Assembly: GCA_900317155.1 (NCBI GenBank)
Contig: ONFO01000022.1
Span: 22,234 to 86,233 of the forward strand
Direction: 5' to 3'
Length of the DNA stretch: 64,000 nt
DNA from: an uncultured Bacteroidales bacterium
GTDB lineage: Bacteria > Bacteroidota > Bacteroidia > Bacteroidales > F082
The position numbers were made by a program, and so were the translations under genes. Positions 52,796-64,000 of the stretch are shown in pieces. Under the pieces are notes generated by a model. The model did not search any database. It had not been told where the DNA came from and saw only the letters and a program-made list of their open reading frames with translations. Each line of letters begins with the position of its first letter. Position 1 is the stretch's first letter.

Positions 52796-52971
52796 GGATA
52801 ATGCAGTTTAATTTTGAATAGTTACTTATAATAAAAGCGAACAAATTGAACTAATGAATAAACGAACAAAAATAGGACCCACCCTCCTCCCGCTCCGAAG
52901 GCGTTTCATCAAATATTCAATATTTTTTTCTCATTTTGTTTGTGTATATCAAATTTATCCTTACCTTTGAA

Positions 52972-53130: not shown

Positions 53131-53856
53131 ATGAAAACTAAATTATTGACAATTGCAACGATGGTTGCCCTCATGTTGGGGACCATGACAAAGGTGCAGG
53201 CTCAGGCTCCTTGCCTGCCGCAAATGCACGGACTTATTGAACACCAGAGCGCTTCGTGTGGCATCACACAGATGCTTGCCTTGACAACAGGCTGGAACTG
53301 GATAAGTCTGTCCATCGATACAGGTAATCCCATCGAAATGCTCCAGATGCTGGAGACAGCCTTGGGTGACAATGCTGTACAAATCCAATCGTTTGACGAC
53401 AACACCGAGTTTGATGGCGAAGAATGGTTTGGTGGTCTGGACGACACAGGCATCTCCAACGCACAGATGTATATGATTGAAGTCGTTAACGACTGCACGG
53501 TGGAGCTGCAAGGCCCGGCTGCCAATCCTACCAACTACCAAATCACCATTGAGCCCGGCCAATGGAACTGGATCGGATTCCCCTCCACGGTGGAACTGGG
53601 CATTGCTAATGCGCTCTCCGAATTCAATCCTGAAGAGGCAGACCAGATTCAAGCCGGTAATATCATGACCGAGTTCGACGGCGAGGAATGGTTCGGCGAT
53701 TTCGAGACACTTGTGCCTGGACAAGGTTACATGTACTACTCCAACAGCGATGAGACCAAGATTCTGGTCATCCAAACAGGTTCCAAGGCCCGTCGCACTT
53801 ACCCCAATTTTGGAAAGATTAATAAGCAACCTATTGAGATAGTGCCGACCCGTTAA
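53131..53856 (+). CDS. Secreted protein made almost entirely of the WNW/TEFDGEEWFG double module
   Basis: 241 residues: a signal peptide (1-25), a 23-residue linker with two cysteines (CLPQMHG ... SASCGITQM), then the double module (49-225). Half one has GWNWISLSID, ALGDNAVQIQSF, NTEFDGEEWFGG and NAQMYMI; half two has QWNWIGFP, ADQIQAG, MTEFDGEEWFGD and GQGYMYY. The halves are clearly homologous. The same module ends the C25 protease (54134) and the large protein at 60191, which follow on the same strand. Its function is unknown; it could be a surface anchor, a partner of those proteins or a substrate-binding unit. Confidence 0.85.
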   Translation: MKTKLLTIATMVALMLGTMTKVQAQAPCLPQMHGLIEHQSASCGITQMLALTTGWNWISLSIDTGNPIEMLQMLETALGDNAVQIQSFDDNTEFDGEEWFGGLDDTGISNAQMYMIEVVNDCTVELQGPAANPTNYQITIEPGQWNWIGFPSTVELGIANALSEFNPEEADQIQAGNIMTEFDGEEWFGDFETLVPGQGYMYYSNSDETKILVIQTGSKARRTYPNFGKINKQPIEIVPTR

Positions 53857-53894
53857 GTAATATCTTAGGTCAAACATCTTACACAACATGATAT

Positions 53895-53926
53895 GGAGCC
53901 CACGGTGTGCCGTGGGCTCCTATTTT
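53895..53926 (+). terminator. Rho-independent terminator
   Basis: GGAGCCCACGG and CCGTGGGCTCC pair over a TGTG loop (53895-53920), followed by TATTTTG, 38 bp after the stop at 53856. Confidence 0.8.
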
Positions 53927-54054
53927 GTCACACACCGATTCGCTTATAGAGCCCTTCCCTTGGGGTTATAATCATTCATAAATACATAATAACCAAATAG
54001 CTATACACTTTTTTATTTTTTTTGCTTATTAATCCAATTGTTTTTATCTTTGCT

Positions 54055-54062
54055 GCCAAATC
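54055..54062 (+). promoter_or_regulatory. Promoter -7 box for the C25 protease gene
   Basis: TATCTTTG, 71 bp upstream of the ATG at 54134. Confidence 0.55.
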
Positions 54063-54133
54063 TTGAAGCTGGATTTGCATATTGAGATTGTATTTCAAAA
54101 AACCAAATATTGTCATTTTTTAAAACTACTGTT

Positions 54134-57100
54134 ATGAGGAGATTTTTACAAACCATGGTTCTCATTGCGGTGATTGCTATGTCGACAAGTCTCGCAATGG
54201 CACAGACCTTTACTTATCCGGTAAAGGGCAAACAAGGTTTCTCATTGTCAGAGAAAACCAGAGATGGGCTGCATGTTAGCTACAACTTGGGCCAGTTCAC
54301 CTTGAGCCCACTTAACTATCGAGGTGAGAGCATGTCAGAAATCAGTATTTCAGGCATGGTCTTGCCCAACAATGAAGGTTGTCCTAACTTGCCAGTGGAG
54401 AGTCGCCTGTTGGCGGTTCCACAAGGGGCAAATGCACAACTAAATGTTGTCAATGTTGAGAGCGAGATCGTACGGAATGTGGATATCGCACCCGCCTTAC
54501 GCATCCAAGCCGAAAACGAGGAACCTGAATTCAATTATGTGAAAAACCGGGAGGTTTATTCGAAAAATGCTTTTTATCCCGAACAACCTTTCACAATTGA
54601 AAGGACGTCTATTCGTGGCGTTGATGTCGTTGCGGTTTCGGTTTCACCTTTCCAGTATAACCCGGTGACCAAGGAACTGAAGGTGTACACCAACATCGAG
54701 CTGTCGGTAAACTACGAAGGCGGCAACGGGCATTTTGGTGACGACCGTCTGCGCTCACCTTATTGGGATCCCATCCTCGCCGCTGAGCTGATGAACTACG
54801 ATCAGTTGCCCGTCATCGACTACGCCGCCCGTATGCAACAATGGTTGCGCGATGAGGCCGATGGTGCCGAATACCTCATCATCACGCCCAACAATGACGG
54901 CTGGGCAGAGTATGCCAACCAACTGAAGGACTACCGCACGCGCCAAGGCATCCTCACCAAAGTGTATCGCCTTGATGAACTGCCTGCCTCCACTACGGAT
55001 GAAATGAAGGCTTGGTTCCACAACGCCTATAACACTTGGACGATACCGCCTGTCGCCATTTTGCTGTTTGGCGACCATAACTCTAACATGGCTGAGGGTA
55101 TTCCAGCCGAATACACCTACCACTCATCAACCTATGGCAACTGCATCACCGACAATGGCTATGCTGATGTCACTGGCGATAACCTGCCCGATATTGTGTT
55201 TTCGCGCCTTGTGGCTGCCAATGCCACGGAAGCCCAAATGATGGTGAGCAAGCAAATAGAATACGAGTATTCCAATCCCAACATGGATGCATCCACCTAC
55301 GACCACCCCATCACCGCCTTAGGATGGCAAACCGTGCGTTGGTTCCAAATCTGTTCGGAAGTCGTGGGAGGCTATTGGAGAAACCAAGGGAAACATCCTG
55401 TTCGTATCAACGAAATCTATGATGGCACGCCTGGTGATATCTGGTCGTCTAACCAAAACACGGCTACTGTTGTAGAATATTTTGGCCCCAACGGACAAGG
55501 TTACATTCCTGCCACCCCCAGTGAACTCGGAGGTTGGACAGGAGGTACCGGCACCCAAGTTGTCAATGCAGTAAACAGTGGTTCCATGTTGCTCCAACAC
55601 CGTGACCATGGCTATTATCAGGGATGGGGCGAACCCGACTTCAACAACAGCTATGTCAACCAAATGAACAATGTAGGCAAGATGACTTTTGTAAATACCA
55701 TCAATTGTCAGACAGGAGCCTTTGACTATAGTTCAAACTGTCTCATCGAAGCTTTCATGAGGCGCACTTACAATGGCCAAAATGCAGGTGCTGTGGGCTG
55801 TATTGGACCTACACAGACCTCTTATTCGTTCGTCAACGATACATACGTTTGGGGATTGATGGATCAATATGACCCCAATTTCCTTCCCGATTACGGCCCA
55901 TACGCCAGCTACGAGGGCAACTGGCAACCTGCATTCGGTAATGTCGCAGGAAAGTATTTCCTTCAACAAAGCTCATGGCCATACAACTCCAGCGATAAAG
56001 CCATCACCCACAAGATGTTCACCGCCCACTGCGATGCTTTCTTGAGACTTTACACACAAGTGCCCAGGACAATGAATGTTGTACACTCCTCTGCAGTTGT
56101 GGCTGGTTATGGTGCTGTAACGGTTTCGGCACCGGAAGGATGCACGATCAGCTTAGTGAAAGCTAATCTTGACGGAGGTTGGGACATTATTGCTGTGGCA
56201 ACGGCTACAGGTAGCTCGCAAACAGTCGAGTTTGAGCCTCAAGTGCCGCCTACAGTTATTAATATAGTGGTTACGGGTCAAGACTATCTTCGTTATGAAG
56301 ACACCATTGAGGTGGTGCCGGCGGATGGATCATACATTGTGGTGGATAGCTATACTCCCAATGCCACTCCTGTCAATCAGCAAACTTCGCTTAGCGTGAA
56401 TTTCAAGAATGTTGGATTGGATGCCACGTCAGGTACAACTTCTGTAACCATTAATTCGACTGACGACAGACTGACCATTATTGACGGAACAGGTCAATTT
56501 GGTGCACTGGGCAGCAATCAAGTCGTTTCGTTGGAAAACGAATTCAGCTTCATCATTGCACAAGATGTTCCCGACAATACAAAATTCCACCTCAATGTCA
56601 CCATGACTTGTGGAGGTGACACTTGGACAGGCATATTGTCCATCACGGCTAACCAAGCTGTACTGGAATACGTCGGTGTGTCATGGCCAGAGATTTTCAA
56701 CCCAGGAGAGACCATGACCGTCACAGCCACTTTCAGGAACAAAGGTCACTATATGGCTACCAATGCTGTTGCCCACATCGCTTCTTCAAGCCCTTATGTC
56801 AGTTTCGCCAGCAACAACTACACGGTAGGTACTTTAGAGGTTGGTGAGCAAGTTGAATGCACATTCAATGTGAATGTTGCATCTGGCTGTCCTGAATCTG
56901 AGCAGTTGCCCTTCACTTTCACTTTGAATGCTGACGGCGGCATGGTCGCTGAAGGTTCGGTGGTTCTGAAAAACACCATTATCGCAACTGCGGCAAATCC
57001 AGAGGAAGGCGGTACACTTTCTGGAGCTGGAAAATATGTTCCAGGTTCAACTTGTACTATCACCGCAACAGCAAATGATGGTTATGTTTTTGTGAGGTGG

Positions 57101-59947
57101 ACATTGAATGGCAATGTGGTTTCGGGCCTTTCCACTTATAGTTTCACAGTGACATCTGATGCAGAATATGTGGCCGAATTTGAATGGGTCACGCAGGGCA
57201 TTGCCATTGGCGACGCAGCTATGTCAGATGGTTATCTTCCTAGTTATTCCTTCTATAATTACACTTTGTCACAGCAAATTTATACCACTGACGAAATCGG
57301 AACGGCATGTGAAATTGCAAGTATAGCCTTCTTCAACGCAGGTTCACAGAAAACCCGTTCCTATACAATTTACATGACCCATACCGACAAGTCCACTTTC
57401 GAGAATGCCAACGATTGGATCAATGTCACTGAGGAAGATATGGTATATAGCGGAAGTGTCACCATGATGGCTAACAGATGGACAACGGTTTTCTTTGACA
57501 CTCCTTTTTACTACAATGGCACCTCCAACCTTGCCCTTATTGTAGATGACAACACGGGCTCTTGGTCAAGTGGAATGTCCTGTAGAGTGTTTGGCACTTC
57601 TGGTAGTCAGGCCATCCGCATTTACAGCGATAACACCAATTATGATCCCTATAATCCTTCGGGATATAATGGAACCCTTATGTCTGTGAAAAACCAAATT
57701 ATCCTCGGCATACCTTATACCATTACTGCATCTGCCAATCCTGCCGAATATGGCACGGTGAGTGGCGCTGGTCATTATGCCTATGGAGCGCCATGCACTT
57801 TGACAGCCATACCCAATGATGGCTACTACTTCGTCAATTGGACAGAAGATGGCACGGTGGTTTCATACGACATCAACTACTCCTTTACCGTTAGCGGAGA
57901 CAGAAATTTGGTGGCCAACTTTGTTGAAGAAGGCGCTATGTGCAGGGTGTATTTCGATTTGCACGACTCCTTTGGCGACGGATGGAATGGTAATTACTTG
58001 GTCGTTGACTTCGGTGATGGCCATTCCGAACAGTTCACCATTACAAGTGGTTCATCGGCTTCCTATTATCGATTGCTCGAAACCGGTAGCAACATTACCT
58101 TGACATGGATTGCTGGCTCATGGATAAACGAATGTTCTTTCGACATCAGGTTTGAAAACGACGTTCCGATATACCATGGTGCGAATCTCAGTGCCAGTTT
58201 CCAACATGAACTTACTATTGATTGTGAAAATGCCTATACCCCAGTCTCCATTTCTGTAGCTGCCAATCTCGAAGAAGCCGGTATTGTTGCTGGTGGTGGT
58301 GTCTATGAGCCTGGCACCGTTGTCAACCTGAAAGCCACCCCCTATGTGGGCTACCGCTTCGTCAACTGGACCAAGAACGGCACTATGGTTTCCACCAATC
58401 GCGCTTACAGTTTCACTGTGACGGAAGATGGCGATTTCGTGGCCAATTTCGCTGAACTTTCACAGTCACTGCAGGTCGTGGCTCAATACTATCCCGATGC
58501 AACCAACTCCAATAGCCAATATGTGAAAGTTAGCTGGGCGAGTTCTGCATCATCGGCCCTTGATTCTGGTACATCATCCGACCGCTCCACCTACTGTATC
58601 TATCGCGCCTTCTGTGACGGTAGCGGACAGCAAATGATTGCCGAAAACGTAACCGGTAACCAATACATTGATACCGAATGGGCTACATTGCCCCCAGGCA
58701 ACTACGCCTATGGCGTCAGCCTCATGGATGGCAAAGGCCAAGTGAGCGAAATCCATTGGAACAATTCTGTTGCGACAGACGACAACCAAATCATCAACCT
58801 TTCGGATTATGTCAGTCCACTGGCCAACCTCAGTAATCCTGACGAGCCCTCAAGGGTGAACTTCGAAGACGGCTGGTTCTATTACGACAACGGTACTATT
58901 TCCACAAATGTCGGCATGTTGAGTGGTACAATGTACTGGGGCATCATGATACCTGCGGCCAATCTCCTTCCCAATGCTGGTAATAATCTGACAAAAGTGG
59001 CCTTATATACTACATATTCAGGTGCCACCACGCTGAGCATTTATCTGGGTGGTGACACGGCACCTGCTGGAGACCCCGTTGTTGTCCAAGATTTTGATAT
59101 GCTTGGAAACAGAAGCTTTATGGAGATTGACCTGAACGATCCAATACCCATCGATGGCACTCAGAACCTATGGATTACTTTCTTTAACCAAACTACGTCC
59201 TTCCCTGCCGCTACATGCGGCAACATGGGCGAACCTAACGGAAGCTGGTTAAGTTCTACCGGCTCATATTGGTCTACTTCATCTAGTTACACTTGGATGA
59301 TCCGCGCTTTTGTTGAAGACGGGGGTAATGCCATCAGCTGGTCTAACCGCATTGGGAAACCCATCGTATTGAATGAAGGCTGGAACTGGTTCAGTACATA
59401 TATCGAGGTGGACGACCCCGTTGCCATGCTTGACATGTTGAAAGCAGGATTGGGCAATAATGCCACCGAAATCCAATCGTTTAACAACAACACGGAGTTT
59501 GACGGTGAAGAATGGTTCGGTGGATTGGACGACATCGGTATTTCAAACGAACAGATGTATATGATTCTGGTCGATTCCGACTGTACGGTTGAGTTGTCAG
59601 GCATACCTGCCAACCCTGCCAACCATGAAATCGCCATCAATCCTGGCTGGAATTGGATCGGATTCCCCTGCGCCATGGAATTGAACGTCTCAGATGCCCT
59701 TGCCAACTTCCAAGCCGAAGAGGAAGACATGATTCAAATCAGCGAAAGCATGATCGAGTTCGACGGCGAGGAATGGTTCGGTGATTTTGAGACCTTGGTT
59801 CCCGGACAAGGCTACATGTACTATTCCAACAGCACCGAGCCTAAGACCTTAATCATCTCAACAGGAGCCAAGATGCATCGTGCCTATCCCAATTCCGGAA
59901 AGCTCCCGAAGCAAGTGAAAAAGGCGAAACCTACCGATGGTAACTAA
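54134..59947 (+). CDS. Giant C25 (gingipain-type) cysteine protease with Big-repeat modules and WNW double module
   Basis: 1937 residues from the ATG at 54134 (a TTG at 54110 would precede the signal peptide). After the signal peptide comes a gingipain propeptide-like region (about 30-240) and the C25 catalytic domain (about 240-620). His492 in HRDHG and Cys525 in INCQTG form the likely dyad; their 33-residue spacing equals that of RgpB. Then come about 300 residues of beta domains, three Listeria-Bacteroides-type repeats (VRWTLNGNVVSG, VNWTEDGTVVS, VNWTKNGTMVS) interleaved with other beta domains, and the WNW double module (about 1740-1925) in place of a T9SS type A domain. It should act as an extracellular endopeptidase; specificity is unknown. 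Confidence 0.88.
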   Translation: MRRFLQTMVLIAVIAMSTSLAMAQTFTYPVKGKQGFSLSEKTRDGLHVSYNLGQFTLSPLNYRGESMSEISISGMVLPNNEGCPNLPVESRLLAVPQGANAQLNVVNVESEIVRNVDIAPALRIQAENEEPEFNYVKNREVYSKNAFYPEQPFTIERTSIRGVDVVAVSVSPFQYNPVTKELKVYTNIELSVNYEGGNGHFGDDRLRSPYWDPILAAELMNYDQLPVIDYAARMQQWLRDEADGAEYLIITPNNDGWAEYANQLKDYRTRQGILTKVYRLDELPASTTDEMKAWFHNAYNTWTIPPVAILLFGDHNSNMAEGIPAEYTYHSSTYGNCITDNGYADVTGDNLPDIVFSRLVAANATEAQMMVSKQIEYEYSNPNMDASTYDHPITALGWQTVRWFQICSEVVGGYWRNQGKHPVRINEIYDGTPGDIWSSNQNTATVVEYFGPNGQGYIPATPSELGGWTGGTGTQVVNAVNSGSMLLQHRDHGYYQGWGEPDFNNSYVNQMNNVGKMTFVNTINCQTGAFDYSSNCLIEAFMRRTYNGQNAGAVGCIGPTQTSYSFVNDTYVWGLMDQYDPNFLPDYGPYASYEGNWQPAFGNVAGKYFLQQSSWPYNSSDKAITHKMFTAHCDAFLRLYTQVPRTMNVVHSSAVVAGYGAVTVSAPEGCTISLVKANLDGGWDIIAVATATGSSQTVEFEPQVPPTVINIVVTGQDYLRYEDTIEVVPADGSYIVVDSYTPNATPVNQQTSLSVNFKNVGLDATSGTTSVTINSTDDRLTIIDGTGQFGALGSNQVVSLENEFSFIIAQDVPDNTKFHLNVTMTCGGDTWTGILSITANQAVLEYVGVSWPEIFNPGETMTVTATFRNKGHYMATNAVAHIASSSPYVSFASNNYTVGTLEVGEQVECTFNVNVASGCPESEQLPFTFTLNADGGMVAEGSVVLKNTIIATAANPEEGGTLSGAGKYVPGSTCTITATANDGYVFVRWTLNGNVVSGLSTYSFTVTSDAEYVAEFEWVTQGIAIGDAAMSDGYLPSYSFYNYTLSQQIYTTDEIGTACEIASIAFFNAGSQKTRSYTIYMTHTDKSTFENANDWINVTEEDMVYSGSVTMMANRWTTVFFDTPFYYNGTSNLALIVDDNTGSWSSGMSCRVFGTSGSQAIRIYSDNTNYDPYNPSGYNGTLMSVKNQIILGIPYTITASANPAEYGTVSGAGHYAYGAPCTLTAIPNDGYYFVNWTEDGTVVSYDINYSFTVSGDRNLVANFVEEGAMCRVYFDLHDSFGDGWNGNYLVVDFGDGHSEQFTITSGSSASYYRLLETGSNITLTWIAGSWINECSFDIRFENDVPIYHGANLSASFQHELTIDCENAYTPVSISVAANLEEAGIVAGGGVYEPGTVVNLKATPYVGYRFVNWTKNGTMVSTNRAYSFTVTEDGDFVANFAELSQSLQVVAQYYPDATNSNSQYVKVSWASSASSALDSGTSSDRSTYCIYRAFCDGSGQQMIAENVTGNQYIDTEWATLPPGNYAYGVSLMDGKGQVSEIHWNNSVATDDNQIINLSDYVSPLANLSNPDEPSRVNFEDGWFYYDNGTISTNVGMLSGTMYWGIMIPAANLLPNAGNNLTKVALYTTYSGATTLSIYLGGDTAPAGDPVVVQDFDMLGNRSFMEIDLNDPIPIDGTQNLWITFFNQTTSFPAATCGNMGEPNGSWLSSTGSYWSTSSSYTWMIRAFVEDGGNAISWSNRIGKPIVLNEGWNWFSTYIEVDDPVAMLDMLKAGLGNNATEIQSFNNNTEFDGEEWFGGLDDIGISNEQMYMILVDSDCTVELSGIPANPANHEIAINPGWNWIGFPCAMELNVSDALANFQAEEEDMIQISESMIEFDGEEWFGDFETLVPGQGYMYYSNSTEPKTLIISTGAKMHRAYPNSGKLPKQVKKAKPTDGN

Positions 59948-59974
59948 TTCTTAATTAATGAGAAGTATTACTGA

Positions 59975-60006
59975 AGCCCGCAGCATGCTGCGGGCTTTTT
60001 TATTTA
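59975..60006 (+). terminator. Rho-independent terminator
   Basis: AGCCCGCAGCATGCTGCGGGCT is a 22-bp perfect palindrome (59975-59996), followed by TTTTTTATTT, 27 bp after the protease stop. Confidence 0.85.
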
Positions 60007-60077
60007 TCAATAGGTGAGATAAAAGATATTTTTTTCCCTTTTTTTTCATTTTTTTTCTCCATTTAAAAAAAAAGCCC

Positions 60078-60085
60078 TATTTTTG
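60078..60085 (+). promoter_or_regulatory. Promoter -7 box for the last gene
   Basis: TATTTTTG, 105 bp upstream of the ATG at 60191. Confidence 0.5.
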
Positions 60086-60190
60086 GCCGTTTAATAGTAT
60101 GCAATAATTATCTCATTATAACTCAACTACTTAACAATCAACAAGTTAATACCGACTAATTCACTTAATACTAACTAAATTCAAATCATC

Positions 60191-63100
60191 ATGAAAAGTA
60201 AAAGACTACTTCTCTTGCTGCTATTGGCACTCGTAGCGCCGTGGGCAGCAAATGCACAGAAAGCCCTACCTTATTCGTATGGCTTCGAAAACAATGATCT
60301 GGACGCAGAAGGTTGGACAGTCCAAAAATCCAGTGATTACACTGGCATTAGTACTCAAGCTGCCTATTCAGGCTCGTACGGATTCCTGTTCAACTATACC
60401 GAACAAAACGCTTATCTGGTATCACCTGTATTGACTGGTACTGAAAATGGTGTTACTGTAGGTTTCTACTACAAAGAAGCCGCTGACTACTACGGTGACG
60501 AACAATTCTACTTCGGCTATACCACAGACGAAACCGTTACAGACCCGAGTTCGTTTACGTATGGCAGTTTGACAACTGCTTCGCTGGAGTGGCAATTGTA
60601 TGAGGAAACACTTCCAGCAGGAACCAAAAAAATAGCTATCAAGTATGTGTATAACGATGCGTTATATCTCTACCTTGACGACTTCAGCTTCGAAGCTCCT
60701 TCCTCCTGCACCAAGCCAGTCAGCTTGGCAGGGACCGCAAACGGTCAAGAGGCCACCCTCACATGGACGGGCGATGCCTCTTCGTTTGATGTAGCCTACT
60801 CATTGGATGCCACTGCTAATCCCGACGACAACATCGTTGCCAACGTGAGCACCACATCCTACACCATGGATGGTTTAGAACTTGACAAAGACCACTATTT
60901 CTGGGTGCGTTCCAACTGCGGCAGCGAGATGAGCGCATGGGTTGGACCCAGGAGCATACATATCGGCTACTGCGTACCCGCTCCCACTTCGGTGGACGGC
61001 AATGGCATTTCTAACGTGACCTTCGGCATGGGCGACTATCAGGTCAACAACGACACCCCCAAGGCCACTTATGCCGACTTTTCCAGCATGATTGGTGCTG
61101 CGCAGGTTGGTGTTGAGTCAACCATCGCGATCACCCTTGAAACAGGTTTTACCTACAACACCTATGTCTGGGTTGACTTCGACAACAGTTTGAGCTTTGA
61201 TGCCGACGAAGTGATTTGCTATGGCGAAAGCTCAAGTGCTAACCCCACCACGCTGACACTCAGCTTCGTTGTCCCTAGCACTCAAGCTTTAGGCGACTTC
61301 CGTATGCGTATCGGTAGTGCAGATTCTGGTTTGGGCTCTGACCCAGAAACTGCCAATCCTTGTTATACGGGCGCCTATGGTTGCTTCCAAGACTACACCC
61401 TGCGTTTGCTTGAGGCTCCTTCCTGCCTGACTCCTACCAACCTTGTCGTGAACTACACTGGCGGCACTTCAGCCACCCTGACGTGGAACGAAAATGGTAC
61501 TGCCACCAGCTGGGATATCCAATACAGCACTGATCCTGAATTTAACGATATCATGACAGGCCAAGCCGACGGCGAACCGACCTATACTCTTACAGGACTC
61601 GCTCTTGCTACTACCTACTATGTGCGTGTGAGTGCTTGGTGTGAAGAAGTTGGAGCACCAAGCATGTTTAGTAACCCCGTCAATTTCACCACCGACGCTT
61701 GCATGCCTGAAAACATGTGCGAACTCACCATTACATTAACTGATGCATACGGTGACGGTGGCGGAAACATTCAGGTAGTGGATGTCCTCACCAATGTGGT
61801 TTTGGGATCCTTTACCAACAGTGGAGTGTCAACAACATACACTCTTGCTGTTTGTGACGGCAGAGAACTCAATTTTGTATATGCTTCAACCGACAACTGG
61901 TCGTATGAAAACGGTTGGGTCATAACGGATATCAATAATGAAATCATTTCCGAGCATGTTGGATGCTCCAGTTCTGGAAGCTGCGACGCTCCCACCAATG
62001 GTGTGATTACCAACTACACCGTCGACTGCACCATCACCAATTGCAAGACTCCTACCAACCTCGCTGTTTCAGAAGTTGGCCCTCACAGCGCCGTGCTGAG
62101 TTGGACCGAAAACGGCGAAGCCACCGCTTGGGTTGTTGAGGTTATTGATATGGATGGCGGTCAAACCACCTATTGGGATGCCAACGCCAACCCCTTCACA
62201 ATTCCTGGCCTGTTGCCCGAAACAAACTACAAAGTGAGAGTGCGCCCCATCTGCTCCGACTTCGACGACAAGTGGAGTGAGAGTCTCACCTTCCCCACCG
62301 AGGTGGCCTGCCCGAATCCTACGGATTTGAGCGTTACTCCGAATCCTTTCTCCGCCGATGTGACCTGGGCTGGCTTTGCCGAAAGCTACAACATCGAATG
62401 GGCTGAATCTCCCGCTACAAGAGAAGGTGGCCTCTGGCTGCAATACGACAATGGCACCCATTATACGAATATTGGTAATACCACTTCTGGTGTTCGCACT
62501 TGGGGTGTAATGTATCCCGCCGCCATGCTCGAAGGCAACAATACCCTCACAAAGGTTGCCGTCCAAGAATACGCCAATTACTACACATGCGAATCCTACA
62601 CGATTAATATTTACAACGGTGCCGACCAACCTGAAACGCTTATCGGTACAGAAATCGTTGTCCCCACCGGCGAATCCGGCATGCATGAAATCACCCTGTC
62701 AACGCCTATCACCATGGATCCTTTACAAAACTTGTGGATTACTTTGTCTGTGGAAGGCACCTACGTCATGGCTGCTTGCCAAAACACTGAACGCAATAAC
62801 CAGTGGTGGGACAACAATAACGACGGCGTATGGACATGCATGGCTGATGATAATTCCAGTCTGGCTGGTTATGGTTGGATGATTCGCGGCTATGTCGAGG
62901 GCTATGATGCTTCTGCATGGGATTGGAACCAAGCTACAAGCAACACGGCTTCCTATACCATCAACGGACTTGAACCCGAGACGACTTATGCTGTCAGAGT
63001 GCAAGCCAATTGCGGCGACGATGGCGTGAGCAACTGGATATGGGCTGTGTTCACCACGCCTTCGGCCTGCGACGCTCCTATCGAACTTGAAGCCACCGAC

Positions 63101-64000
63101 ATCACCGAGAATGCCGCCACCCTCAACTGGGTTGGCTATCAAGACAGCTACAATTTGCAATATAGAGAAGCTATGAAATACATACCTGTTTGGGAAGACG
63201 ACTTCGAAAACGGTATTGGTGAAGAATGGACCATCGTCGCTGGAGAAGAAGCTACCTATCCGTCTAGCGGAATTTGGTACACTATTAATCCTATTAGTGG
63301 CCTGAGCTTTGAAGCTCATAGCGGATCCTACTGTGCCAGCTCATGGAGTTGGAACTCTTCGGCATACGATGCCGACAACTGGCTCATCACTCCTCAGCTC
63401 GACCTCCAAGGCGTACTGAAGTACTATGTGAGAACCAGTACTGGTTATCCTGACAGCTACGAAGTGCTGCTCTCTCTCACTGATACCGAAACCACCAGCT
63501 TCGACGTCACTTTGAAAGCAATGGCACCTGCTCCTAACAATGGAGAATGGAATGAGGTCGTCATTGACCTGAGCGACTATGTTGGACGTCAAGGTTACAT
63601 CGCCATCCACCATGTGGATTATGACATGAACTACCTCTGCATCGACGACCTCGGCATCTATACTGTTGAGGAAGCCGGTGAATGGATCCCTGTCACCACC
63701 AACGAGCCCACCTATGCTCTTACCGGTCTGAATTCTAATACCGACTACGAATGGCAAGTTCAGGGTGTGAACGCCAGCTGCGAAGGCGGCCTCACCGAAT
63801 GGACTGAAATTGCCACCTTCACCACGCTTGCACCGACGTCATTCACCCAGACGCTCGAGTTGACCGAAGGCTGGAACTGGGTGAGTCTGTCCATCGAGGC
63901 GGGCGATCCTGTCGAGCTGCTCCAGATGCTGGAGGCTGCCCTGGGCGACAACGCCGTGCAAATCCAGTCGTTCGACGACAACACCGAGTTTGACGGTGAG
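60191..64000 (+). CDS. Giant fibronectin-type surface protein with WNW module, 3' end missing
   Basis: The frame is open to the window edge (1270 residues so far). It has a signal peptide (1-22, ending ANAQ) and a MAM/cleaved-adhesin-like domain (YGFENNDLDAEG ... YLYLDDFSF, about 26-175). Several fibronectin type III-like domains follow (repeated LTWNENGTATSWDIQYS, TYTLTGLALATTYYVRV and similar), then an Asp-rich DAYGDGGGNIQVVD, a domain shared with the C25 protein (YDNGTHYTNIG ... WMIRGYVEG) and a second MAM-like domain. At about 1225 the WNW module begins (GWNWVSLSIEAGDP, NAVQIQSFDDNTEFDGE) and the window ends. No catalytic motif; adhesion is likely. Confidence 0.85.
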   Translation, partial: MKSKRLLLLLLLALVAPWAANAQKALPYSYGFENNDLDAEGWTVQKSSDYTGISTQAAYSGSYGFLFNYTEQNAYLVSPVLTGTENGVTVGFYYKEAADYYGDEQFYFGYTTDETVTDPSSFTYGSLTTASLEWQLYEETLPAGTKKIAIKYVYNDALYLYLDDFSFEAPSSCTKPVSLAGTANGQEATLTWTGDASSFDVAYSLDATANPDDNIVANVSTTSYTMDGLELDKDHYFWVRSNCGSEMSAWVGPRSIHIGYCVPAPTSVDGNGISNVTFGMGDYQVNNDTPKATYADFSSMIGAAQVGVESTIAITLETGFTYNTYVWVDFDNSLSFDADEVICYGESSSANPTTLTLSFVVPSTQALGDFRMRIGSADSGLGSDPETANPCYTGAYGCFQDYTLRLLEAPSCLTPTNLVVNYTGGTSATLTWNENGTATSWDIQYSTDPEFNDIMTGQADGEPTYTLTGLALATTYYVRVSAWCEEVGAPSMFSNPVNFTTDACMPENMCELTITLTDAYGDGGGNIQVVDVLTNVVLGSFTNSGVSTTYTLAVCDGRELNFVYASTDNWSYENGWVITDINNEIISEHVGCSSSGSCDAPTNGVITNYTVDCTITNCKTPTNLAVSEVGPHSAVLSWTENGEATAWVVEVIDMDGGQTTYWDANANPFTIPGLLPETNYKVRVRPICSDFDDKWSESLTFPTEVACPNPTDLSVTPNPFSADVTWAGFAESYNIEWAESPATREGGLWLQYDNGTHYTNIGNTTSGVRTWGVMYPAAMLEGNNTLTKVAVQEYANYYTCESYTINIYNGADQPETLIGTEIVVPTGESGMHEITLSTPITMDPLQNLWITLSVEGTYVMAACQNTERNNQWWDNNNDGVWTCMADDNSSLAGYGWMIRGYVEGYDASAWDWNQATSNTASYTINGLEPETTYAVRVQANCGDDGVSNWIWAVFTTPSACDAPIELEATDITENAATLNWVGYQDSYNLQYREAMKYIPVWEDDFENGIGEEWTIVAGEEATYPSSGIWYTINPISGLSFEAHSGSYCASSWSWNSSAYDADNWLITPQLDLQGVLKYYVRTSTGYPDSYEVLLSLTDTETTSFDVTLKAMAPAPNNGEWNEVVIDLSDYVGRQGYIAIHHVDYDMNYLCIDDLGIYTVEEAGEWIPVTTNEPTYALTGLNSNTDYEWQVQGVNASCEGGLTEWTEIATFTTLAPTSFTQTLELTEGWNWVSLSIEAGDPVELLQMLEAALGDNAVQIQSFDDNTEFDGE

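Follow-up and report, generated by a model that had tools for sequence, protein, structure and literature searches.

PPAD and the gingipains of Porphyromonas are type A cargo of the type IX secretion system (T9SS), and in cohesin-dockerin scaffolds many enzymes that carry one docking module share a scaffold. One published account names the C-terminal signals (CTDs) of the T9SS as type A, B or C, describes type A structures as Ig-like with RgpB among the type A cargo, and states that type B signals need PorP/SprF, usually encoded nearby (PMC10202324). A second account describes type B shuttles as often encoded by a linked gene, with one shuttle serving three orphan substrates (PMC12618676), which offers a precedent for a single partner that serves many clients.

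The window, that is, the whole stretch of 64,000 nucleotides that was analysed, closes with three adjacent genes (P0001, P0002 and P0003), whose open frames each begin with a signal-like start as judged by eye. P0003 is incomplete because the window end is also the end of its contig (C37, position 86233). The features of the locus are as follows.

52962..52969, + strand: TACCTTTG box 5′ of P0001, 169 nt from the start
53131..53856, + strand: P0001 (241 aa), comprising a signal-like start, a 25-residue linker with two Cys, a double GWNW module and a basic tail
53281..53769, + strand: complete double GWNW module, P0001 residues 51-213
53770..53853, + strand: tail of P0001, 28 residues, net charge +5, probably disordered (low model confidence)
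53895..53920, + strand: terminator-like hairpin 3′ of P0001, 11 pairs, T-rich tail
54045..54052, + strand: TATCTTTG box 5′ of P0002, 89 nt from the start
54134..59947, + strand: P0002, a C25 peptidase with C25 propeptide and three InlB B-repeats, module C-terminal, without type A match
59369..59854, + strand: complete double GWNW module, P0002 residues 1746-1907
59855..59944, + strand: tail of P0002, 30 residues, net charge +6
59973..59998, + strand: terminator-like hairpin 3′ of P0002, 11 pairs, T-rich tail
60078..60085, + strand: TATTTTTG box 5′ of P0003, 113 nt from the start
60191..64000, + strand: P0003, with fn3, GEVED and choice-of-anchor J domains and then the module start, cut by the contig end
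63860..64000, + strand: partial GWNW module of P0003, its first 47 residues (1224-1270)

The initial annotation proposed that these three secreted proteins share one C-terminal module. The sharing was confirmed, with full copies in P0001 and P0002 (65% identity over 173 residues, E 2.7e-72, far above chance) and a partial copy in P0003; the C-terminal place holds for P0001 and P0002, where the module lies near the C-terminus, but P0003 is cut 47 residues into it. An identical stretch had also been reported for the first and third genes: the peptide NAVQIQSFDDNTEFDGE is indeed identical in both, but the underlying DNA is equal at only 43 of 51 bases. As had been stated, the type A signal is absent, neither PF18962 nor TIGR04183 matching any of the three proteins at E ≤ 1, with P0003 being incomplete. 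Each gene does possess a TAnnTTTG box of its own, of a kind common in the window (62 versus 41.5, s.d. 7, in shuffles), and the strong terminators described after the first two genes correspond to the 11-pair hairpins. Since shuffles yield more terminator-like sites (mean 7.2) than the three found in the scan, it is stem strength, not number, that supports these two hairpins. Boxes and hairpins, read from the DNA, suggest three transcription units at P0001-P0003. The strand opposite P0001 holds a 248-codon open frame (53143-53889), probably a composition effect. A genus relative encodes a 223-codon frame built like P0001. Five contigs of the source genome (C37, C47, C8, C52 and C18) stop inside a module copy; similar repeats appear to have broken the assembly at these points.

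The GWNW module comprises about 162 residues in two repeats that are homologous to each other (hhalign probability 99.4%, E 2e-21), and the earlier term "double module" is thus apt. By eye, each repeat proceeds from a GWNW start through an IKSQ-like strand and a GW.G.L stretch to a PG.GY.Y.S end. The AlphaFold model of P0001 residues 45-241 is confident and beta-rich (mean pLDDT 91), with low confidence in the last ~25 residues. No match to the module was found in Pfam, NCBIfam, PHROGs, PDB sequences or phage records, nor did a text search of the literature for the motifs GWNWIG, GWNWIS and GWNWFS return any. Foldseek comparison of the P0001 module model with PDB folds gave nothing at E ≤ 0.001; weak matches of single repeats to cupins and to a designed double-stranded beta-helix give no more than a hint. 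A model of a fused protein, in which the module precedes the ECRG domain described below and a type A signal, reached a pTM of 0.77 with the type A region at lower confidence; its four Foldseek matches at E ≤ 0.001 all had TM-scores of 0.09-0.18 and were of no use, and none of the 50 matches listed was a CTD structure by title, which makes it a weak control for the comparison with the Ig-like seven-strand fold of type A. With "not described" taken to mean Pfam, NCBIfam and PHROGs in the versions searched together with the literature searches, the undescribed look of the module persists, and we regard GWNW as a new domain, rich in beta structure and built of two repeats, that belongs to secreted proteins of T9SS bacteria.

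The supposition that the module is locus-specific did not survive wider searches. The source genome contains 19 matches, six of them half-modules near the N-terminus, and the module occurs in 34 of the 60 genomes searched as relatives: the source genome, 29 of 35 in the genus and 4 of 24 elsewhere in the order. A phylum survey matched 20 of 257 genomes at E ≤ 1e-8, the source genome included, and the other 19 have 1-3 copies. Named bearers (22 loci) include rumen-type Bacteroidales, Muribaculaceae, Prevotella, Tannerella, a Neomarinimicrobiota and a Cloacimonetes record. SprA was found in the source genome and in 48 of 49 other genomes tested, the single miss being 62% complete. As for the T9SS that the initial annotation suggested looking for, its translocon SprA is present in every module-bearing genome tested (the source genome and 43/43 others); because SprA is also common without the module (5/6 tested genus genomes that lack it), T9SS presence alone says little. 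The suggested signal-peptide check, for which many matches lacking one would count as adverse, came out in favour, a crude hydrophobic-start rule fitting 56/56 complete module proteins.

To describe where the module sits within its proteins, we assembled 147 distinct near-full copies, of which 139 had a stop codon in view and eight ran off the locus end. Copies with an identical module were dropped, and those from the genus were the best-scoring matches listed in chosen genomes plus one locus per genome. Two placements emerged. In 68/139 closed copies the module is terminal (tails of 0-9 aa in 53, 10-39 in 14 and 68 in one), and in 71/139 it lies 177-340 aa ahead of the stop; no closed copy has a tail of 69-176 aa. 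The terminal copies come mostly from G000 (the source genome), G018, G020, G002, G021 and G035 and the CTD-bearing ones mostly from G030 and G022; the balance between the classes reflects the genomes chosen, the 139 copies being a sample. The terminal count includes L074, possibly a broken frame, behind which a second partial module follows. Type A signals were recognised in 67/71 (TIGR04183) and 66/71 (PF18962) of the long tails, one of the remainder being a FISUMP domain, whereas the final 100 aa of the 68 terminal copies contained none of the signals of type A (PF18962/TIGR04183), B (PF13585/TIGR04131) or C (NF033708). Matches at E ≤ 0.01 of long tails to CHU_C (type B, 4/71) and NF033708 (type C, 7/71) were taken as cross-matches of the type A region. 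A profile check of C-terminal place and type A absence, as the initial annotation envisaged, thus upheld both for the 68 terminal copies but not for the 71 that stand before a long tail.

A quick tree built from the 139 modules requires eight changes of placement state, four of them forced by starred branches, versus a mean of 46.5 for shuffled labels on the same tree, a figure inflated by near-copies. The modules of P0001 and P0002 fall in a starred clade of 17 terminal copies, of which 11 have basic tails (net +4 to +7); the mean tail charge of the 51 other terminal copies is 0.3. The final residue is K or R in 34/68 terminal copies, 64/99 type A ends and 71/270 other frames. A further arrangement, the second repeat alone directly after a signal-like start, makes up the six half-module frames of the source genome. 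These frames lie at the loci L027, L028, L026 and L030 (G000 contigs C18, C32, C42 and C22). Among half-module frames scanned, 3/4 gave a sub-cut-off FISUMP match and 0/4 a type A match at E ≤ 0.01. We rejected the idea that the terminal class arose from long copies by frameshift: a long-tail-like stretch lies within 900 nt downstream in 14/68, and 13 of these stretches are separate same-strand frames with their own signal-like start (by eye), the 14th being a type A-bearing neighbour on the opposite strand. A simple replacement of type A by the module was rejected as well, given the 67 copies that carry type A in cis.

The long tails contain a second domain, ECRG (~110 aa, with a GAFxGxECRG motif), between the module and the type A signal, and neither Pfam nor NCBIfam has a model for it. 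ECRG follows the module in 68/71 long-tail copies and occurs anywhere in frame in 1/68 terminal copies. Among the 134 of 139 copies with at least 450 nt downstream (the other five having too little DNA), 39 are followed within 600 nt by an ECRG start on the same strand in another frame, 13/64 terminal and 26/70 with a CTD. The next gene after the module often opens with a signal peptide and ECRG. Type A was present in four of the five ECRG genes behind terminal copies whose end could be scanned, and TIGR04183 scored over cut-off in 7/9 ECRG genes scanned (the partners and the second ECRG gene of G003). Pfam at E ≤ 1e-4 gave nothing in three ECRG partners of the source genome, so their type A assignment rests on TIGR04183. 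The 3.8 Mb of the source genome contain four ECRG domains, three of them in the gene directly after a terminal module (contigs C45, C28 and C47, the C47 module being cut by the contig start) and the fourth near the start of C32 without an upstream module frame. Across the genus, ECRG was found in 18/18 tested (of 29) module genomes and in 0/5 tested (of 6) without the module (Fisher p 3e-5, a value that ignores relatedness and includes ECRG domains that are in part the fused ones).

Single-copy genomes and gene runs gave a similar picture of linkage. G012 and G029 have one module each and their sole ECRG in the next gene; in G024 it lies in the same frame. Gene runs were inspected in nine relatives, the G021 stretch running off its contig. 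In G020, six same-strand module genes, with one opposite-strand frame between the first and second, precede a single gene of ECRG-ECRG-GWNLxGNP-type A architecture. G018 has three module genes 18-21 nt apart and then an ECRG-ECRG-GWNLxGNP gene cut by the stretch end, and in G003 four module genes are followed by two ECRG-type A genes. Two phylum relatives (L179, 2809-3228; L180, 2732-3166) have, after the module gene, a small gene whose product, lipoprotein-like by eye, is little more than ECRG.

The GWNLxGNP double domain, present in several ECRG partner genes, resembles the module in profile over 52 columns (hhalign 87%, E 3.9e-6) but differs in motif spacing, and in the partner genes a further beta domain and often type A follow it. 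A C25 protease on contig C40 of the source genome (L097, 4178-9322) has at its C-terminus a GWNLxGNP double domain followed by a lysine-rich tail, with no type A visible; this end is perhaps a second kind of terminal module. Upstream in the window, the LRR protein P0004 (49467-52622) includes a YLLASPF...GWYLLGNF stretch that by eye resembles the same double domain, and a Pfam and NCBIfam scan gave neither a type A nor a FISUMP match for it.

Terminal-module proteins examined include C25 and C10 peptidases, an M14 carboxypeptidase, a PAD_porph deiminase and endonuclease I, and further ones are a Cthe_2159 carbohydrate-binding protein and LRR or fn3 proteins. We compared the C25 and C10 paralogues of the source genome, calling type A by matching contig and frame length to the type A matches listed and the rest by eye. 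Type A accompanies 10 of the 16 C25 domains (nine matched among the matches listed, one by eye); three end in the module (in the window, on C28 and on C8, where the copy runs off the contig), one has the GWNLxGNP double-domain end, and two, in neighbouring genes, we take to be PorU-like. Of 20 C10 domains, 17 have type A (15 matched among the matches listed, two by eye), one ends in the module and two have neither. One of the two endonuclease I proteins ends in the module and the other is type A-like by eye.

Module and ECRG are fused in some proteins, encoded by adjacent genes in others and jointly absent elsewhere, which points to a working pair of T9SS surface proteins, and the docking explanation as a whole is the reading that we tentatively prefer, as a possibility that still falls short of probable. 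In the fused class, ectodomain, module, ECRG and type A signal form one chain; in the split class, the protein ends at the module, and in 13/64 cases the next gene opens with a signal peptide and ECRG. Architecture, linkage and co-occurrence are observed, whereas docking, shared export and anchoring are inferred. On this reading the module would dock on ECRG, so that the enzyme would be held in, or exported with, a surface complex whose ECRG partner bears the T9SS signal, and one ECRG partner could serve several enzymes. P0001-P0003 would be clients of such a partner; no ECRG partner gene lies beside them on contig C37, which ends within P0003. The more explicit two-component form of this proposal appears rather unlikely to us: signal-less enzymes would end in a docking module, a co-encoded ECRG-type A protein would carry or anchor several of them in trans via type IX, and the fused proteins would be the one-chain version. 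Several observations weigh against the pair. In 51/64 terminal copies there is no ECRG gene directly downstream, although many lie within runs, and runs or genes in G002, G007, G035 (C36, C116), G010 (C64) and the source genome (C51, C54) have no closing ECRG gene. The source genome has eight closed terminal copies plus partial ones versus four ECRG domains, and in G255 and G258 modules occur without any ECRG at E ≤ 1e-5. Type A is unmatched in the ECRG partner of the C28 protease of the source genome, and the partner of L179 looks like a lipoprotein. Partners, moreover, follow proteins with a type A signal of their own no less often than they follow terminal copies (26/70), and they therefore do not simply compensate for its loss.

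Two other readings compete with the docking explanation. The terminal module could itself be a T9SS sorting signal beside types A, B and C, recognised instead of type A by the translocon or by a shuttle; this is the alternative sorting signal of the initial annotation, one of three live options and partly supported, yet in our estimate improbable. It draws on the 68/139 strictly C-terminal copies whose final 100 aa match none of types A, B and C, on C25, C10 and endonuclease I members that end in the module while their paralogues are mostly type A (10/16 for C25 and 17/20 for C10, among the matches listed), on the K or R that ends half of the terminal copies (34/68), and on SprA in all 43 other module genomes tested. 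Against it, SprA is also present in five of six tested genus genomes without the module, 67 copies precede a type A domain (in 67/71 of the remaining copies the signal is thus in cis), and half-modules stand at the N-terminus right after the signal peptide, 4/4 scanned lacking type A at E ≤ 0.01. The module also shows no profile similarity to type A-bearing tails (hhalign probability 0.3%) and no Foldseek match at E ≤ 0.001, although type A CTDs are Ig-like in the account cited above (PMC10202324), and the single PorP/SprF gene in the source genome lies on C63, which has no module match.

Alternatively, the module may be a plain extracellular binding or spacer domain with no export role, the copies without type A having lost their CTD and being periplasmic, released by lysis or vesicles, or exported by an unrecognised route, an account that we also regard as doubtful. 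Its varied positions, C-terminal, internal, N-terminal and even alone (P0001), fit such a domain, as do the eight state changes on the 139-copy tree, four forced by starred branches, and the existence of other signal-bearing proteins without type A (P0004, the half-module proteins and the two C10 peptidases). It is opposed by the missing tails of 69-176 aa, by the strong clustering of placement on the tree (8 versus 46.5 changes in shuffles, near-copies inflating the latter), by repeated use on unlike enzymes and by linkage and co-occurrence with ECRG. Through the ECRG partner it is the assembly option, in the initial list of sorting, anchoring or assembly, that has gained evidence.

Set beside the described systems, the module resembles the type A CTD (PF18962, TIGR04183) in being C-terminal on some of the same enzyme families, with a signal peptide, in T9SS genomes and often with K or R last, but it has no sequence or profile match to it and spans ~162 aa in two repeats versus ~75 aa. 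Like the type B CTD (PF13585, TIGR04131), it is a long C-terminal region whose partner sometimes comes from the next gene; unlike type B, which it does not match, its partner is the ECRG protein rather than PorP/SprF, and in the source genome no PorP/SprF lies beside a module gene (the only one is on C63). With the type C CTD (NF033708, ChiA) it shares a C-terminal region that differs from A and B, but none of the 68 terminal copies matches NF033708. If docking holds, the many module enzymes and their shared scaffold-like partner would recall cohesin-dockerin, as an analogy only.

Collectively, module and ECRG form a genuine pair of undescribed domains in secreted proteins of T9SS type. The proteins that end in the module, and not in an A, B or C signal, include gingipain-like, streptopain-like, carboxypeptidase, deiminase and nuclease proteins. 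If the proposed pairing is true, the known list of T9SS cargo would be too short, and a partner may convey or attach part of that cargo. Models for both domains would annotate many surface proteins of rumen and gut Bacteroidales.
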